From the NCBI RefSeq assembly GCF_000166415.1, contig NC_014654.1, forward strand, positions 1,798,001-1,862,000: a stretch of 64,000 bases of DNA. The letters are read 5' to 3'. The stretch comes from Halanaerobium hydrogeniformans. Lineage in GTDB: Bacteria > Bacillota > Halanaerobiia > Halanaerobiales > Halanaerobiaceae. The translations under genes were made by a program, and so were the position numbers. The notes beneath the pieces are model-generated. The model did not search any database. It was not told the DNA's origin and saw nothing but the letters and a program-made list of their open reading frames with translations. This document shows positions 7,317-17,835 of the stretch, in pieces (the first letter of the stretch is position 1; each line of letters starts with the position of its first letter).

Positions 7317-9026
7317 TTATTTTTGAATGCTTTTTAAATAATCTTTAACCTCATCAACAGATTTAAGCTCTAATACTTTTTCTGCTTTTTGAGCTGCTTC
7401 ACTGATCGTCCACTGTGAAAGCAGTTCTTTGATCTTTAAAATAGACACAGCACTCATACTGAACTCATCCAGTCCTGCTCCCAGCAAAAATGGTAAGAGC
7501 AGTTCATTACCGGCTGCTTCTCCACACATTCCTACCCAGATATTTTCCTGGTGGGCACTCTCAATCGTCTTTTTTACCATCCTTAATACTGCTGGATGAT
7601 AAGGATTGTGCATCTGAGCAATCTTCTCATTCATCCTATCTACTGCCACTGTATACTGGATTAAATCGTTTGTTCCTATACTGAAAAAATCAACCTCTTT
7701 AGCCAGCTGATCTGCTGTCATCACTGCTGCTGGTATTTCTATCATCATCCCGATTTCTAGATCTTTATTATAATCTTTGTCTTCACTTTCTAACTCTGCT
7801 TTGACTTCTGCCACCTTTGCTTTGGCTGCTAATAGCTCATCCATTGTCGCTATCATCGGAAACATTATCTTTAGATTACCAAAGGCACTTGCCCTTAATA
7901 GTGCTCTGAGCTGTGGCTTAAAGATATCATCTCTTTCTAAACAAATTCTGATCGCTCTGTAACCTAAAAATGGGTTCATCTCTTTTGGAAAATCTAAATA
8001 TGGTAAATCCTTGTCTCCCCCAACATCTAATGTTCTGATTACTACTGGCCTATCACCCATTGTTTCTGCTGCTTTTTTATAAACCTCAAATTGTTCTTCT
8101 TCTGTTGGTAATTCACTGCGATCCATATATAAGAATTCGGTGCGGAAAAGGCCTACTCCTTCTCCCCCTTTTTCTAAAATGGGCGCTATATCATTTAAAT
8201 TACCCATATTACCTACTACTTCTATATCTACCCCATCTTTGGTCTGGGCTTTTTTGTCCTTATAAAATTCTAAACGCTTCTGCTCTGTTTTATATTCTTC
8301 AAGCTTGGCTTGATACTCTTCTTTTGTTGCCTTATCAGGTGAAAAATACACCTTACCACTGCTGCCATCTACTATTACTTCCTCATCATTTTCGGCGGCT
8401 GTTAAAAGCTCTTCACCTAAACCTACTACTGCTGGTATACCAAGCGTTCTTGCCATTATCGCAGTATGAGATGTTCTTGAGCCATCTTTGGTTAAAAAGG
8501 CCAGTACTTTTTCTGTATCAAGCTGAGCTGTGTCTGAAGGGGTTAAGTCCTCGGCTATTATTACTACCTCTTCTTCCATCTTTTCTGCTATATCTTCTAC
8601 CCCAAGCAGAATCTTAATTACCCTCATTCCTACATCTTTAATATCTGCTCCTCTTTCTTTTAAGTACTCGTCTTCCATTGCCGAAAACATCGCAGCATAC
8701 TCATCTACTACTTCTTTAACCGCTGCTGCTGCATTTAACTTTTCTTCTTTAATCTTATTTTCAAAAGCTGGAATAACTTCTGGATCATCTAAAATCATCA
8801 GATGGGCTCCGAATATTTCTGCTTTTTCTTTTCCCATCTTTTCAGCAGTACTCTCTTTTAACTCTTTAAGAGATTTTTTTGCTTTTTCAAGTGCACTGTG
8901 AAGTTTGGCTATTTCTTTTTCGACCGCTGAATCTGTTATGTTCTCATAATCAATTTCTACTTTTTTATCTTTTTTGATTAATACCTTACCAACTGCAATT
9001 CCTGGTGATGCTCCGATTCCCTGCAT
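7317..9026 (-). CDS. ptsI: PTS enzyme I (phosphoenolpyruvate-protein phosphotransferase)
   Basis: Enzyme I takes phosphate from phosphoenolpyruvate and passes it to HPr, driving PTS sugar uptake in the cytoplasm. The histidine phospho-domain contains GSRTSHTAIMAR with the active-site histidine (near residue 185). The C-terminal PEP-binding barrel has LFRTEFLYMDR, GNMGN and FFSIGTNDLIQY. The ATG at 9024-9026 (MQGIGASPG) is used because the upstream in-frame ATG sits inside the Shine-Dalgarno GAGGGGTG. This gives 569 aa, normal for the family. The gene starts 4 nt after the ptsH stop, so ptsHI are coupled. Confidence 0.96.
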   Translation of the reverse strand: MQGIGASPGIAVGKVLIKKDKKVEIDYENITDSAVEKEIAKLHSALEKAKKSLKELKESTAEKMGKEKAEIFGAHLMILDDPEVIPAFENKIKEEKLNAAAAVKEVVDEYAAMFSAMEDEYLKERGADIKDVGMRVIKILLGVEDIAEKMEEEVVIIAEDLTPSDTAQLDTEKVLAFLTKDGSRTSHTAIMARTLGIPAVVGLGEELLTAAENDEEVIVDGSSGKVYFSPDKATKEEYQAKLEEYKTEQKRLEFYKDKKAQTKDGVDIEVVGNMGNLNDIAPILEKGGEGVGLFRTEFLYMDRSELPTEEEQFEVYKKAAETMGDRPVVIRTLDVGGDKDLPYLDFPKEMNPFLGYRAIRICLERDDIFKPQLRALLRASAFGNLKIMFPMIATMDELLAAKAKVAEVKAELESEDKDYNKDLEIGMMIEIPAAVMTADQLAKEVDFFSIGTNDLIQYTVAVDRMNEKIAQMHNPYHPAVLRMVKKTIESAHQENIWVGMCGEAAGNELLLPFLLGAGLDEFSMSAVSILKIKELLSQWTISEAAQKAEKVLELKSVDEVKDYLKSIQK

Positions 9027-9030
9027 CAAA

Positions 9031-9309
9031 TCACCCCTCATCTTCTTTCAACATCTCAACTTCAACAAAATCAACCAATTCTTTTACTGCCTGCTCAGAG
9101 TCTTCACCCTCAGCTTTAATTGTAATTGTATTCCCTTTACCTGCTCCGAGACTCATAACACCCATGATACTTTTAGCATTAACTTCTTTACCTTCATGAA
9201 TAATGTTAATTTTAGATTCAAATTGACCAGCTTTTTGTACAAACTGAGCTGCCGGTCTAGCATGTAAACCGGTTCTATTTTTGATTTCTACAGATTTTTC
9301 AATTGACAA
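9031..9309 (-). CDS. ptsH: HPr phosphocarrier protein
   Basis: HPr relays phosphate between enzyme I and the sugar-specific EII proteins. The TGLHARPAA motif holds the phosphorylated histidine, and KSIMGVMSLG holds the regulatory serine targeted by HPr kinase in Firmicutes. The most upstream ATG touches the AGAAAGG ribosome-binding site with no spacing. The TTG three codons later (9307-9309) has 9-nt spacing and puts the histidine at 16 and the serine at 47, close to the usual 15 and 46. I therefore prefer the TTG start. The retained serine site suggests HPr kinase/CcpA-type control. Confidence 0.93.
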   Translation of the reverse strand: MSIEKSVEIKNRTGLHARPAAQFVQKAGQFESKINIIHEGKEVNAKSIMGVMSLGAGKGNTITIKAEGEDSEQAVKELVDFVEVEMLKEDEG

Positions 9310-9371
9310 TTCAATCATCCTTTCTAAAAATATTTTAATTGTTTCATCTATTTATATATCTTATCATAAAG

Positions 9372-9429: not shown

Positions 9430-10005
9430 TTAATAATTCCAAAGTTCCTGTCTACTGGTAGAAATTGCAAAAACTCCTTTATCCACCAGATATTCTATTT
9501 CTTTTTTTTCTTCTACTAATCCTCCAGCAATAATTTGATAATTATTATTTTTATCCTGTTGAGATTTTTTTATAAAATGTGGAGCTGCAATAGCAGGTAA
9601 AATTTCAACCGCATCAACTGAACGATCTCCTAACATTTTTTTAGCACTTGTTAAAGAACCAGAATCTAAAAGAAATATTCTTTGAATTGTCATCAAACCA
9701 TTTTTATGAGCAATTTTTATTAAATAACTTTTAGTTGAAATAATTCCATCACATAAATTGTTTTCTGCTAAATACTCAATCCCCTTTTTGTCATGGGCAA
9801 TTCCTTTTAAAAGATCTATATTTATCATTAAGATTTTATCATTTTTATGGGCAAGCTCCATTGCTTCTTTTAAATCAAAAATAGATCCAGCAAGTAAAAA
9901 TATAATTACCGCCTCTTTTTTCCCCATTGCCTGTTCTAATAGCTTCATATCTCTTACTGCAGGAATTACCGGATATTTTTTAAAATAACTTGCTAAATGT
10001 CTCAA
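9430..10005 (-). CDS. glpP: Glycerol-3-phosphate responsive antiterminator GlpP
   Basis: GlpP is an RNA-binding regulator. With glycerol-3-phosphate it lets transcription pass leader terminators of glp genes and stabilises their mRNA, as known for Bacillus subtilis glpD and glpFK. The 191-aa protein shows the family pattern, with PVIPAVRDM near residue 12, a FLLAGSIFDL segment, INIDLLKGIAHD, and the C-terminal GGLVEEKKEI...GVFAISTSRQELW. The start is a TTG after GGGGGTG. It has its own promoter and lies just downstream of the glycerol-3-phosphate oxidation operon. That operon's leader contains a matching terminator, so the likely target is next door. Confidence 0.92.
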   Translation of the reverse strand: MRHLASYFKKYPVIPAVRDMKLLEQAMGKKEAVIIFLLAGSIFDLKEAMELAHKNDKILMINIDLLKGIAHDKKGIEYLAENNLCDGIISTKSYLIKIAHKNGLMTIQRIFLLDSGSLTSAKKMLGDRSVDAVEILPAIAAPHFIKKSQQDKNNNYQIIAGGLVEEKKEIEYLVDKGVFAISTSRQELWNY

Positions 10006-10158: not shown

Positions 10159-10530
10159 TTATAAATTTCTAGCTAAATTTCTTGTAGCAACTATGTCTGC
10201 TCCAGTGTCTAAGATGTTTTCGATTAAAACATCTCCCATTTTGATTGGAGCTTCAACTTCTAGGCTACCAATAATTGACATTGCATCATGTATAACTTCA
10301 AGCGGAATTGCTTTGGTTGTCTTAACTGGTACTAAAGGAAGGGAACCATTTTTTACAACAGCAGTGGTTGGTAAAATTCTTGTTGGTGCAACTACCTCTT
10401 CTTTAGCATAATCTTCTCCCTGAGGACAAGCATGTCCATCAATTGAGATGATCTCATTACCTTCAAATTCAACTGCTACCTCACAGCCTTTAGGGCAGGC
10501 AACACAGGTTAATTGTTTTTTCTCTATCAT
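10159..10530 (-). CDS. DUF1667 iron-sulfur protein of the glycerol-3-phosphate operon
   Basis: A 123-aa protein of the DUF1667 family. Its N-terminus holds C9-x2-C12-x3-C16-x18-C35, a spacing like the [4Fe-4S] motif of molybdopterin oxidoreductases, so it probably carries one cluster. The remainder includes PTRILPTTAVVKNG and PVKTTKAIPLEVI, conserved in this family. In many anaerobes it is encoded third after a GlpA-type dehydrogenase and a pyridine-nucleotide-disulfide-type flavoprotein, as here. An electron-transfer role between these subunits and an acceptor is the usual inference. The start follows directly after the preceding stop (TAAATG), suggesting translational coupling. Confidence 0.85.
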   Translation of the reverse strand: MIEKKQLTCVACPKGCEVAVEFEGNEIISIDGHACPQGEDYAKEEVVAPTRILPTTAVVKNGSLPLVPVKTTKAIPLEVIHDAMSIIGSLEVEAPIKMGDVLIENILDTGADIVATRNLARNL

Positions 10531-11811
10531 TTAATTTCCCTCCTTTTCTATAATATCTACTCTTATTTCTGATAAGTCATCTAGACCATCTAAGGTTTTT
10601 TGGGCTAAAGGAACACTTATCATTTCACCAGGTTTAGCAAATGGTTCTGAGAAAGAATATAGTTTTTTACCATCTGCATATAGGTTAATGTCCACAGCAG
10701 TTAATGGAGTTGAAACTCTCATATAAAGAGGAATTCTTTTTCTATCTTCTGACTCCAGCTCTATTTTTTGAGGTATAACATAGCTTACATTTTCCCCTGC
10801 TTTTACATCTACTTCAGCATCTGTTCTTTTGTAGTCACCTTTAATATACTTAGCTGCCCAATCTCCGGCAATCTCTGACTCCTGGGTTACCCAGTCTACA
10901 AGGTCATGTACATGTAATACATTACCACAGGCAAAAATACCTTCTATATTAGTTTCACGACCTTCATTAACAATCGGGCCACTAGTTCTATCATCAAGTA
11001 CTACATCAGCTTTTTTAGAAAGTTCGTTTTCAGGAATTAATCCAACAGATAATAGCAAAGTATCTGCCTTGATAATTTTTGCAGTCTCAGGAATAGGGTT
11101 AAGATTTTCATCAACCTCGGATATCTCAACTGCCTCTAATTTACCATTACCTATTATTTCTGTAACTGTGTGGTTCAGCATAAGGGGTATATCATAGTCC
11201 TCTAAACACTGAACTACATTTCTGGTTAATCCACCAGTATAAGGTAGAAGTTCACAAACAGCTTTTACATCTGCACCTTCTAATCTCATTCTTCTAGCCA
11301 TTATTAAACCAATGTCTCCTGAACCAAGTACAACTACTTCATCTCCAGGAACATATCCTTCTATATTTGTATACCTTTGAGCAGTACCTGCAGTAATAAC
11401 TCCAGCTGGTCTTGTACCTGGAATTCCAATTGCACCAGCTGTTCTTTCTCTACATCCCATAGCTAAAATTACTGCTTCAGCCTGGATTTCTGAAAATCCT
11501 TCATCTTTATTAACCGCATATACTTTTTTATCTTTGCATACATCTAAAACCATTGTATTTAACTTAACTTCAATATTTCTCTCAGCAACATCGTCAATAA
11601 AGCGCTGAGCATATTCAGGGCCAGTTAATTCTTCTTTAAAGTGATGAACACCAAAACCATTATGAATACATTGAGGAAGAATACCTCCCAATTCCATATC
11701 TCTTTCAATTACCATTATATCTTTTATACCTTTATCAAATGCTTCTTTGGCAGCTGCTAATCCGGCTGGTCCTCCACCTATTACTACAAGTTCTTTGTTT
11801 ATTTTATGCAT
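10531..11811 (-). CDS. FAD/NAD-dependent oxidoreductase partner of GlpA
   Basis: A 426-aa flavoprotein with two dinucleotide folds. The FAD-binding VIGGGPAGLAAAKEAFDKG is near residue 9, the second site VVLGSGDIGLIMARRM near 170, and EGIFACGNVLHVHDLVD near 305 is the C-terminal FAD motif. ELGGILPQCIHNGFG (about 41-55) is typical of the subfamily encoded with GlpA and DUF1667. It overlaps the end of glpA by 8 nt. The likely role is passing electrons from the glycerol-3-phosphate dehydrogenase toward NAD or a quinone/ferredoxin partner. The true acceptor cannot be read from sequence. GlpB is a functional analogue, but this is a different kind of flavoprotein. Confidence 0.85.
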   Translation of the reverse strand: MHKINKELVVIGGGPAGLAAAKEAFDKGIKDIMVIERDMELGGILPQCIHNGFGVHHFKEELTGPEYAQRFIDDVAERNIEVKLNTMVLDVCKDKKVYAVNKDEGFSEIQAEAVILAMGCRERTAGAIGIPGTRPAGVITAGTAQRYTNIEGYVPGDEVVVLGSGDIGLIMARRMRLEGADVKAVCELLPYTGGLTRNVVQCLEDYDIPLMLNHTVTEIIGNGKLEAVEISEVDENLNPIPETAKIIKADTLLLSVGLIPENELSKKADVVLDDRTSGPIVNEGRETNIEGIFACGNVLHVHDLVDWVTQESEIAGDWAAKYIKGDYKRTDAEVDVKAGENVSYVIPQKIELESEDRKRIPLYMRVSTPLTAVDINLYADGKKLYSFSEPFAKPGEMISVPLAQKTLDGLDDLSEIRVDIIEKEGN

Positions 11812-13279
11812 TAACGCTCACCTTGCTTTCAAGTAATTCTTTTATTTTATAATCAAGAATTTTTGAATTGTCTTCTTCCTGCTTAATCTCAGTTGGATCA
11901 AGTCCAAGTTCATCTGCTAATATTTCTACTACTTTTGGTCCACAGAAACCACCCTGACATCTTCCTGCTCCTGCTCTAGTTCTTCTTTTTACTGCATTAA
12001 CAGTTCTTGCACCTACAGGTCCATGAATTGCATCTACAATTTCTTTGTAGGATACTGTTTCACAGCGGCAAATGATCTGACCATAATCTTTATCTTCATT
12101 TACATATTCTGCTCTCTCTTCATTTGTCATTTCATAAAATCTTACTGGTTCTTCCCGTGTCTCAATAATATTATCTTTTTCAGAAAGTTTTAAGCCCTCT
12201 TCCTCTAATATCTCTGCTGTAAGATCTGCAATTGCTGGAGCAGATGATAGTCCCGGTGACTGAATACCTGCTACGTTAACGAATCCTTTAACATTTTCCG
12301 CTGCTTCAATAACAAAATCTTCACTCTGGTCAGCAGCTCTTAAACCTGCAAAAACACGAATTGTATCTCTTAAATCTAATTCAGGGAATAATTTCTTCGC
12401 ACCAGTATAAACTTCTTTTAACCCTTCTGGGGTAGTTGACAGATCTTCTTTACTGTCTACTGTTTCTGAAGTTGGTCCAATTAAAATATTATGTTCTACT
12501 GTAGGTGCTACTACTATCCCTTTACTAATTGGGGTAGGGATTGGGAAAACTACATGATTTAATTCATAATCTTTAGCATGATCATAAATATAGTATTCTC
12601 CCTTACGAGGAGTAATATCTACTTTCTCTACACCAGCCATTTTAGAAATTTCATCTGCATAAACTCCTGCAGCATTAATTACATAATCAGCTTCAAATTC
12701 ACCCTGGTTAGTTTTTACACCAACAACCCTATCATCTTCAATTATAATATCTTCTACTTTAGTTTCTAATTGAACTTCAGCACCATTTACTACAGCATTT
12801 TCAGCCATTGCAAGAGCAAACTCCCAAGGTGTTATAATACCTGCTGTAGGTGCCCAAAGCGCTGCAACTGCATTTTCAGCTATATTAGGCTCATTCTCAC
12901 GCAGCCACTCTTTATCAACTATTTTTAGCCCCTCTACGCCATTCTCTTTACCTTTTTCTAATAAATCATCTAATACACTTAAATCATCACCTTCTACTCC
13001 AACTACTAATGAACCAATTTCTTCAAAGGGTATATTTAAATCTTTAACAATTTCTTTTATTTGAATATTACCTTTATTATTTAACCTACCTTTAAGCTTT
13101 TTAGGATCTGCATTATATCCAGCATGGATTATTGCAGTATTAGCTTTAGTAGTACCTGTAGCAATATCAGCTTCTTTATCTAATAATAAAATATCTAGAT
13201 CATAACGTGCAATCCTCCAAGCAACTGCACATCCGGAAATACCTGCACCAATTATAATTACATCATATTTTTTTGACAA
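11804..13279 (-). CDS. glpA: Anaerobic glycerol-3-phosphate dehydrogenase (GlpA-type) with C-terminal BFD [2Fe-2S] domain
   Basis: This flavoprotein oxidises glycerol-3-phosphate to dihydroxyacetone phosphate. The 491-aa protein begins with a DAO-type FAD fold (VIIIGAGISGCAVAWRIARY) and ends with a BFD-like [2Fe-2S] domain. The latter is visible as CRC (C-x-C) at about residue 402 and CQGGFC (C-x4-C) about 37 residues later. The start is TTG with a strong GGAGGG 5 nt upstream. It heads a tightly packed operon with the flavoprotein and DUF1667 genes. No glpC gene is adjacent, so the E. coli GlpABC complex is not reproduced. Expression is probably controlled by the leader terminator at 13443-13502 and GlpP. 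Confidence 0.9.
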   Translation of the reverse strand: MSKKYDVIIIGAGISGCAVAWRIARYDLDILLLDKEADIATGTTKANTAIIHAGYNADPKKLKGRLNNKGNIQIKEIVKDLNIPFEEIGSLVVGVEGDDLSVLDDLLEKGKENGVEGLKIVDKEWLRENEPNIAENAVAALWAPTAGIITPWEFALAMAENAVVNGAEVQLETKVEDIIIEDDRVVGVKTNQGEFEADYVINAAGVYADEISKMAGVEKVDITPRKGEYYIYDHAKDYELNHVVFPIPTPISKGIVVAPTVEHNILIGPTSETVDSKEDLSTTPEGLKEVYTGAKKLFPELDLRDTIRVFAGLRAADQSEDFVIEAAENVKGFVNVAGIQSPGLSSAPAIADLTAEILEEEGLKLSEKDNIIETREEPVRFYEMTNEERAEYVNEDKDYGQIICRCETVSYKEIVDAIHGPVGARTVNAVKRRTRAGAGRCQGGFCGPKVVEILADELGLDPTEIKQEEDNSKILDYKIKELLESKVSVNA

Positions 13280-13442
13280 TTAGTTCCCTCCTAATTATTG
13301 TTAATTCCTTTTAACACGATTTAAAATGATTTTAAAGTTAAATAAATTTATTTGTTTTTTTTAGTTTATAAGATCCTCCTTTCATTAAAATTTAAGGTAG
13401 ATAGACTTTTCTTGACTCAAAAATAAATTTTAAAAACAAAAA

Positions 13443-13502
13443 AACCTTATTGAAATCAAGTGATTACCGTTGACATAGTAATCCCCAGGTTTCAATAAGG
13501 TT
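13443..13502 (-). terminator. Leader terminator (attenuator) upstream of glpA
   Basis: Perfect 13-bp arms (13490-13502 and 13443-13455) close a 34-nt loop holding a second small hairpin (GATTAC/GTAATC, 13462-13467 with 13478-13483). TTTTTTT follows on the minus strand. It lies between a strong promoter (13544-13572) and glpA, so transcripts would stop here unless antitermination occurs. It could also end the upstream dpp transcript. The sequence TAAGGTAGA at 13514-13522 (minus) can pair perfectly with TCTACCTTA at 13393-13401, enclosing the whole terminator. A GlpP-responsive switch is inferred from the neighbouring glpP gene. Confidence 0.82.
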
Positions 13503-13543
13503 ATCTTTTCGACTCTACCTTATAAAATATTTAATTTGAAATA

Positions 13544-13572
13544 AGTATACCATTGAATTTTAACTTTGTCAA
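13544..13572 (-). promoter_or_regulatory. Promoter of the glpA operon leader
   Basis: On the minus strand a perfect TTGACA (13567-13572) and TATACT (13544-13549) are spaced 17 bp apart, just after the dppC stop. Transcription would begin near 13537, run through the hairpin at 13443-13502, and reach glpA about 260 nt downstream. Confidence 0.85.
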
Positions 13573-17327: not shown

Positions 17328-17784
17328 TATAGTAGGATGGAGGTGAAAAATCAATGCGATTATCATTTAAATTCAAGCCTAAATTAAGCCATAAGCAATT
17401 AGTAATAATTAATGAATTAGCCTGGCATTGCTCTAAATTATATAATACAGTCAATTATCAGATTAAAAATAATAAAGATGTAAAAGCTGTCTATACTGAA
17501 TTAGAAACTAGATATAAAAATAACTGGCATAATGACTACCTTCACTCCCATAACAGACAACAGGCATTAAAGCAGTTAGCTAAGGACTGGAAAAGTTTTT
17601 TTAATTCTCTCAAAGATTATAAAAAGAATCCTCAAAAATATAAGGGGCAGCCAGAGTCACCTAATTTTAAACATATGAACAGTAATCCCTGTGAAATAAT
17701 TTTTACCAATTTAGCTGTTAGAATTAAAGATAACAAATTACTCTTATCCTTATCTAAAAAGATACAATCTAAATATAATGTGAA

Positions 17785-17835
17785 GGTCACTAAAGCTTTT
17801 AATTTATAATACGCAAGGAAAGCTTTAGTATGACC
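17785..17835. repeat. Palindromic insert inside tnpB
   Basis: The left arm GGTCACTAAAGCTTT (17785-17799) is the reverse complement of the right arm (17819-17835), apart from two extra bases. The loop is about 19 nt. The hairpin lies in the 66-bp segment 17786-17851 that breaks tnpB between codons for ...YNVK and LNFELP... . Without it the frame is continuous and resembles other TnpB proteins. It looks like a very small inserted mobile repeat. Confidence 0.65.

Follow-up and report, generated by a model that had tools for sequence, protein, structure and literature searches.

The glpA-like gene of Halanaerobium hydrogeniformans is preceded by a leader in which a promoter is followed by an intrinsic terminator, and a gene for the antiterminator GlpP lies downstream on the same strand. 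This arrangement raises the question of what lets transcription pass the terminator. An earlier note on the window (the whole stretch of 64,000 nucleotides analysed here) had read the leader as a GlpP-controlled switch, in which a 9-bp helix enclosing the terminator would be the antiterminated form or a platform for GlpP. Comparison with relatives (Halanaerobium species and other Halanaerobiales) and with other phyla argues for control by GlpP and places the alternative fold in a different hairpin.

The leader and the operon behind it

The features are as follows, in positions of the window.

13544-13572, minus strand: promoter TTGACA-17-TATACT with extended -10 TG; same layout in nearly all Halanaerobium copies
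13517-13523, minus strand: arm a, ATAAGGT, 5' strand of the predicted antiterminator hairpin; pairs with b, and a and b co-vary between lineages
13502-13516, minus strand: purine-rich loop AGAGTCGAAAAGATA, local form of (G)GAGA-N-RGAGA (43 aligned elements), putative GlpP contact
13495-13501, minus strand: arm b, ACCTTAT, shared strand, predicted to pair with a (read-through) or with c (termination)
13490-13502, minus strand: 5' arm of the terminator, 13 bp, AACCTTATTGAAA; compensatory changes in relatives
13462-13486, minus strand: apical part of the terminator, with GGGG, a GATTAC/GTAATC hairpin and CTATGTC (13478-13472)
13443-13455, minus strand: 3' arm of the terminator, TTTCAATAAGGTT, including arm c, ATAAGGT (13450-13444)
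13438-13444, minus strand: T-run (7 T) of the intrinsic terminator
13393-13401, minus strand: arm d, TCTACCTTA, 3' strand of the outer helix; conserved only in the sister species
13375-13383, minus strand: Shine-Dalgarno-like GAAAGGAGG without a nearby start codon; similar decoys in many long Halanaerobium leaders
11804-13279, minus strand: glpA-like FAD-dependent glycerol-3-phosphate dehydrogenase, first gene of the controlled operon
10531-11811, minus strand: glpB-like pyridine-nucleotide/FAD oxidoreductase
10159-10530, minus strand: DUF1667 protein, in a GlpC-like position
9430-10005, minus strand: glpP, glycerol-3-phosphate-responsive antiterminator (Pfam PF04309, G3P_antiterm, E = 6e-57; PDB relatives 3kts and 1vkf)

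The promoter (13572-13544) has 11 of 12 consensus matches besides the extended -10 TG, and TTGACA-N-TG-N-TATAMT recurs upstream of nearly all Halanaerobium copies of the leader; it is by prediction a strong and conserved promoter of the sigma-70 type. Between this promoter and the glycerol gene sits the intrinsic terminator, whose arms (13502-13490 and 13455-13443) form 13 perfect pairs. The longest perfect inverted repeat reached at least 13 bp in 2 of 1000 dinucleotide shuffles, and the fold energy of the leader has a z of -4.9, with none of 200 shuffles equally stable; the hairpin is therefore not a product of chance. In the aligned relatives, 6 of the 22 predicted pairs of the terminator show compensatory changes (G-C to A-T, A-T to T-A, and others), and the stem is, as far as these changes indicate, under selection. 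The earlier note had described the promoter, the perfect 13-bp stem with seven T, and a distance of about 160 nt from terminator to glpA; each of these readings is borne out (T-run at 13444-13438, glpA start at 13279). Shine-Dalgarno-like sequences (AAAGGAGG) without a start codon lie about 55-140 nt 5' of the gene in many Halanaerobium leaders, including the one at 13375-13383; these decoys may resemble STAB-SD stabilisers.

The earlier note also had glpP ending this operon. The gene is present at 9430-10005, but a further intrinsic terminator (10149-10124; 11 bp, 7 of them G-C) stands between the DUF1667 gene and glpP, which makes co-transcription uncertain, and expression of glpP may in part be independent of the operon. 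Genes resembling ptsH and ptsI directly follow glpP (7317-9318), and a short ORF like the start of a TnpB-type transposase, apparently truncated, is found at 17354-17809. The genome, a single contig of 2,613,117 bases, encodes three GlpP (PF04309) proteins.

Distribution of the leader and of GlpP

A search with the leader recovered one more copy from this genome (G000:C1:15100-15206); the operon behind it comprises the gene of a 291-aa membrane protein, then glpK, another glpA, glpB, DUF1667, and a PfpI-like gene. With blastn, matches were found in 13 of the 14 genomes of the family, some of the weakest being matches to the T-run; the short matches L018-L020, L023, and L025-L035, which are mostly T-run or A-run, were dropped. 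In the family, the clear copies stand in front of glpA-like genes, of glpF or glpK, or of genes for small membrane proteins. The covariance model R1, built from 14 copies with the terminator as its only structure, matched in 20 of the 38 genomes of the order Halanaerobiales; antisense matches, which arise from the near-symmetry of the stem, were excluded. The copies from family and order mostly lie upstream of glpF, glpK, glpA-like, permease, DUF6905, or GDPD genes; L053, upstream of an aminotransferase-like gene, is perhaps a spurious match.

The membrane proteins encoded between leader and glpK (L036:840-1715, L024:1707-2063, and L168:8681-9414) are either the 291-aa protein or a DUF6905 pair. 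All are candidate glycerol transporters. The 291-aa protein had no match in Pfam or NCBIfam, and the NCBIfam search gave the permeases no name.

Within the order, the leader occurs only together with GlpP: it is present in 20 of the 28 genomes that have GlpP above the Pfam cut-off versus none of the 10 genomes that do not (Fisher's test, about 1e-4, a value that overstates independence since the genomes are related). Eight GlpP-bearing genomes had no R1 match; in several of them, a descriptor scan found elements with the three arms a, b, and c.

A three-arm element across phyla

In the clear copies, arm a repeats the downstream 3' arm of the terminator and can thus pair with arm b, which (13501-13495) is also part of the terminator 5' arm. 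Here a and c read ATAAGGT and b reads ACCTTAT. The arms change jointly in relatives (ATGGT/ACCAT, AGTCA/TGGCT, GATGGT/ACCATC, and AATAGG/CCCTATT; further examples for a and b are GGTC/GACC and TTGTG/CACAA), and the co-variation of a, b, and c extends over Halanaerobiales, Paenibacillus, Clostridia, Thermotogota, and Atribacteria.

Because registers drift by 0-2 nt, counts for a x b from columns of the R1 alignment are too low, and we instead compared the pairing of each arm a with its own and with swapped arms b. The R1 hits give a fair test, since the R1 model omits a x b. Among 18 leaders with distinct arm b, own arms form 6.17 pairs on average, a value reached in none of 5000 permutations, versus 4.41 +/- 0.33 for swapped arms. 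For 129 motif hits across phyla, which were chosen by motif and terminator and not by a x b, the values are 4.33 and 3.34 +/- 0.12, in a test that is weakened because many of the regular-expression matches are coding sequence, not elements, and were kept. The conserved alternative pairing, which shares a strand with the terminator and is kept by co-variation, is on these comparisons a x b (ATAAGGT with ACCTTAT), and the earlier note had overlooked it.

In the 43 aligned elements, which come from several phyla, the GAG/GA positions of the enclosed loop are near-invariant, and the common core is a stem of 3-8 bp closing (G)GAGA, 2-6 nt, and RGAGA. The second purine block of the present leader deviates, with AAGAT in place of GAGA; this counts against a GlpP model, as do the eight GlpP-bearing genomes without an R1 match and the presence in the genome of three GlpP paralogues, any of which may act on this leader. 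Until arm c is synthesised, the fold of minimum energy includes a x b together with the apical hairpin. Once arm c is present, the terminated form is the more stable one by about 5.6 kcal/mol (-24.9 kcal/mol, versus -19.3 kcal/mol with a x b), an energy order that fits a default stop which a bound protein must prevent.

The second small hairpin that the earlier note saw inside the terminator loop is present (GATTAC, 13483-13478, with GTAATC, 13467-13462), and the loop carries a clade-conserved CTATGYC. The pattern [CT]T[AG]TG[TC]C occurs in the loop of 20 of the 34 halanaerobial leaders, whereas 0.5 would be expected and none of 2000 shuffles gave more than 4; the fraction leans high since R1, which itself models the loop, supplied some of the 34 leaders. 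Outside the halanaerobial leaders, a CTATGYC-type motif was present in 1 of 21. The glpF leaders of Halonatronum and Orenia have CTATGYC twice in one terminator loop (L130:8631-8730 and L139:8643-8744).

A scan of genome contigs with a GlpP alignment yielded 80 loci. Three-arm elements were found near glpP in Paenibacillus, Aneurinibacillus, Fictibacillus, Tepidibacillus, Clostridia, a Thermotogota MAG, and an Atribacteria MAG; at 35 glpP loci, mostly a Bacilli sample, the element was in sense orientation in 21 cases and in antisense in 1. The gene order in Fictibacillus is glpP - element - glpF - glpK - element - glpD (L185, elements at 8609 and 11323). In B. subtilis, the glpD, glpFK, and glpT leaders are under GlpP, and each 5' UTR has a GlpP binding site and a terminator (PMC9604022). 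The positions of the two Fictibacillus elements, ahead of glpFK and of glpD, correspond to known GlpP-controlled leaders of B. subtilis; these two and the Bacilli sample put the shared RNA core at leaders of this type.

A second GlpP paralogue (L004:5598-6215) is directly followed by a three-arm element (L004:6270-6379, AATAGG..CCCTATT) that precedes a glycerophosphodiester phosphodiesterase gene and TRAP-transporter-like genes; the same is seen in G003 and G004 (L107 and L105). A third, divergent paralogue (L005:5774-6361; also L104) precedes an operon of short-chain dehydrogenase, sugar kinase, and aldolase, with an element GGGT..GAAGAGAA..ACCC at about L005:6510-6590; this paralogue may be a regulator of the GlpP type that serves a different sugar phosphate. 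Elements also lie upstream of genes for a UgpB-like ABC transporter binding protein and of HAD phosphatase genes (L052, L097, L111, and L187), which suggests that GlpP regulons are wider than the glycerol genes.

Mechanism, rival readings, and known systems

The leader is very probably a GlpP-dependent conditional terminator. The claim of a GlpP-controlled switch in the earlier note is well supported by the glycerol gene context, the co-occurrence with GlpP, and the core shared at the two Fictibacillus positions, glpFK and glpD. Transcription would start near 13537, and arm a, the purine-rich loop, and arm b would be made first, with a and b folding as a 7-bp hairpin. Without inducer, arm c would displace a to give the stronger b x c terminator, and transcription would stop at the T-run. 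With glycerol-3-phosphate, GlpP would hold a x b, probably via the GAGA-type loop, leaving b occupied and no terminator; read-through would then allow expression of glpA-glpB-DUF1667 and perhaps of glpP. Observed within this model are how the leader is built, the joint change of its three arms, the genes that it precedes, and its occurrence together with GlpP. GlpP would be the protein that binds the leader, at the purine loop, and glycerol-3-phosphate the signal, by analogy with GlpP of B. subtilis, which responds to this metabolite.

The outer helix would instead have TAAGGTAGA (13522-13514) and TCTACCTTA (13401-13393) form the antiterminated state or a GlpP platform. This pairing is indeed perfect over 9 bp, it belongs to the minimum-energy fold of the full leader, and it is unchanged in the sister species (L009) despite drifted surroundings. 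However, shuffling the flanks yields a 9-bp repeat around the terminator in 5.6% of cases, so the pairing alone is weak evidence, and conservation is confined to the sister species, the helix being missing in most other Halanaerobium leaders. Its 3' strand lies 37-45 nt past the T-run and is transcribed too late to influence the decision to stop; only after read-through is arm d available for pairing, with arm a over 9 bp or with arm c over 6 bp. In four other leaders, the downstream copy, AAACCTT, would pair with arm c (8 bp) and not with a. The order of synthesis and the poor conservation led us to reject the outer helix as the switch, a role in which we consider it highly improbable and for which a x b is the real alternative; it may play a part in how the read-through mRNA folds or in how stable it is.

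Two further readings do without regulated antitermination by a protein. In a riboswitch, the leader RNA itself would bind glycerol-3-phosphate or another metabolite, and the purine loop and the CTATGYC hairpin could make a ligand pocket. The co-occurrence with GlpP, the adjacency to glpP across phyla, and the very small conserved core (about 30 nt) make this scarcely probable. There was also no riboswitch match in Rfam: the covariance models of Rfam 15 gave no matching family for the leader, nothing but chance matches at a permissive threshold, and nothing above gathering over the element in L185, L187, and L139. A constitutive attenuator or 5' stability element, giving fixed expression or protection of the mRNA end, would suit the decoy Shine-Dalgarno sequences 3' of the hairpin in many leaders, and GlpP is reported to affect the stability of glpD mRNA besides termination in B. 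subtilis, going by the title of Glatz 1996 as cited in PMC9604022 and PMC3997798. We regard it as very unlikely, as it leaves unexplained both why arm a tracks arm b across lineages and why the element is associated with GlpP.

GlpP antitermination has been studied mainly in Bacillus; the GlpP-dependent conditional terminator is now recognisable from sequence in several phyla. With a code that can be read in different phyla, the GlpP regulon can be predicted from genome sequence, and the unnamed permeases become likely transporters of glycerol or phosphodiesters; the code also allows the action of GlpP to be tested exactly by mutation. A broader reading, which we find possible if rather doubtful, is that a single GlpP RNA code (a short stem closing (G)GAGA-N-RGAGA) is used in all GlpP-carrying phyla, that Halanaerobiia have placed a second recognition element, the CTATGYC hairpin (present twice in Halonatronum and Orenia), within the terminator loop to give a two-site leader, and that GlpP paralogues apply the design to other operons, possibly with other sugar phosphates. 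The mechanism itself is of a known kind, of which the halanaerobial leader is a well-supported variant; what is added to it is a code shared between phyla, a loop motif in the halanaerobial leaders, and the fact that GlpP paralogues employ the design as well. The original papers on the B. subtilis leaders may already describe some of this code.

With the B. subtilis glpD, glpFK, and glpT leaders, the halanaerobial leader has in common the promoter, an intrinsic terminator in the 5' UTR, glycerol genes, and a glycerol-3-phosphate-responsive GlpP. Unlike those leaders, it carries the CTATGYC hairpin in the terminator loop, and the halanaerobial targets include the glpA/glpB/DUF1667-type dehydrogenase and unnamed permeases. 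In the BglG/LicT/SacY systems, the protein stabilises an RAT hairpin that overlaps the terminator 5' arm. The action is alike, whereas the protein families are unrelated (GlpP belongs to PF04309), and the loop here, unlike that of the BglG/LicT RAT hairpin, is the (G)GAGA-N-RGAGA purine motif. TRAP, in the trp leader of Bacillus, binds many GAG-type repeats in an RNA with alternative terminator and antiterminator folds, and termination is favoured. The GAG-type repeats in a leader with alternative folds are similar; in contrast, two purine blocks are present here, and binding should favour read-through.
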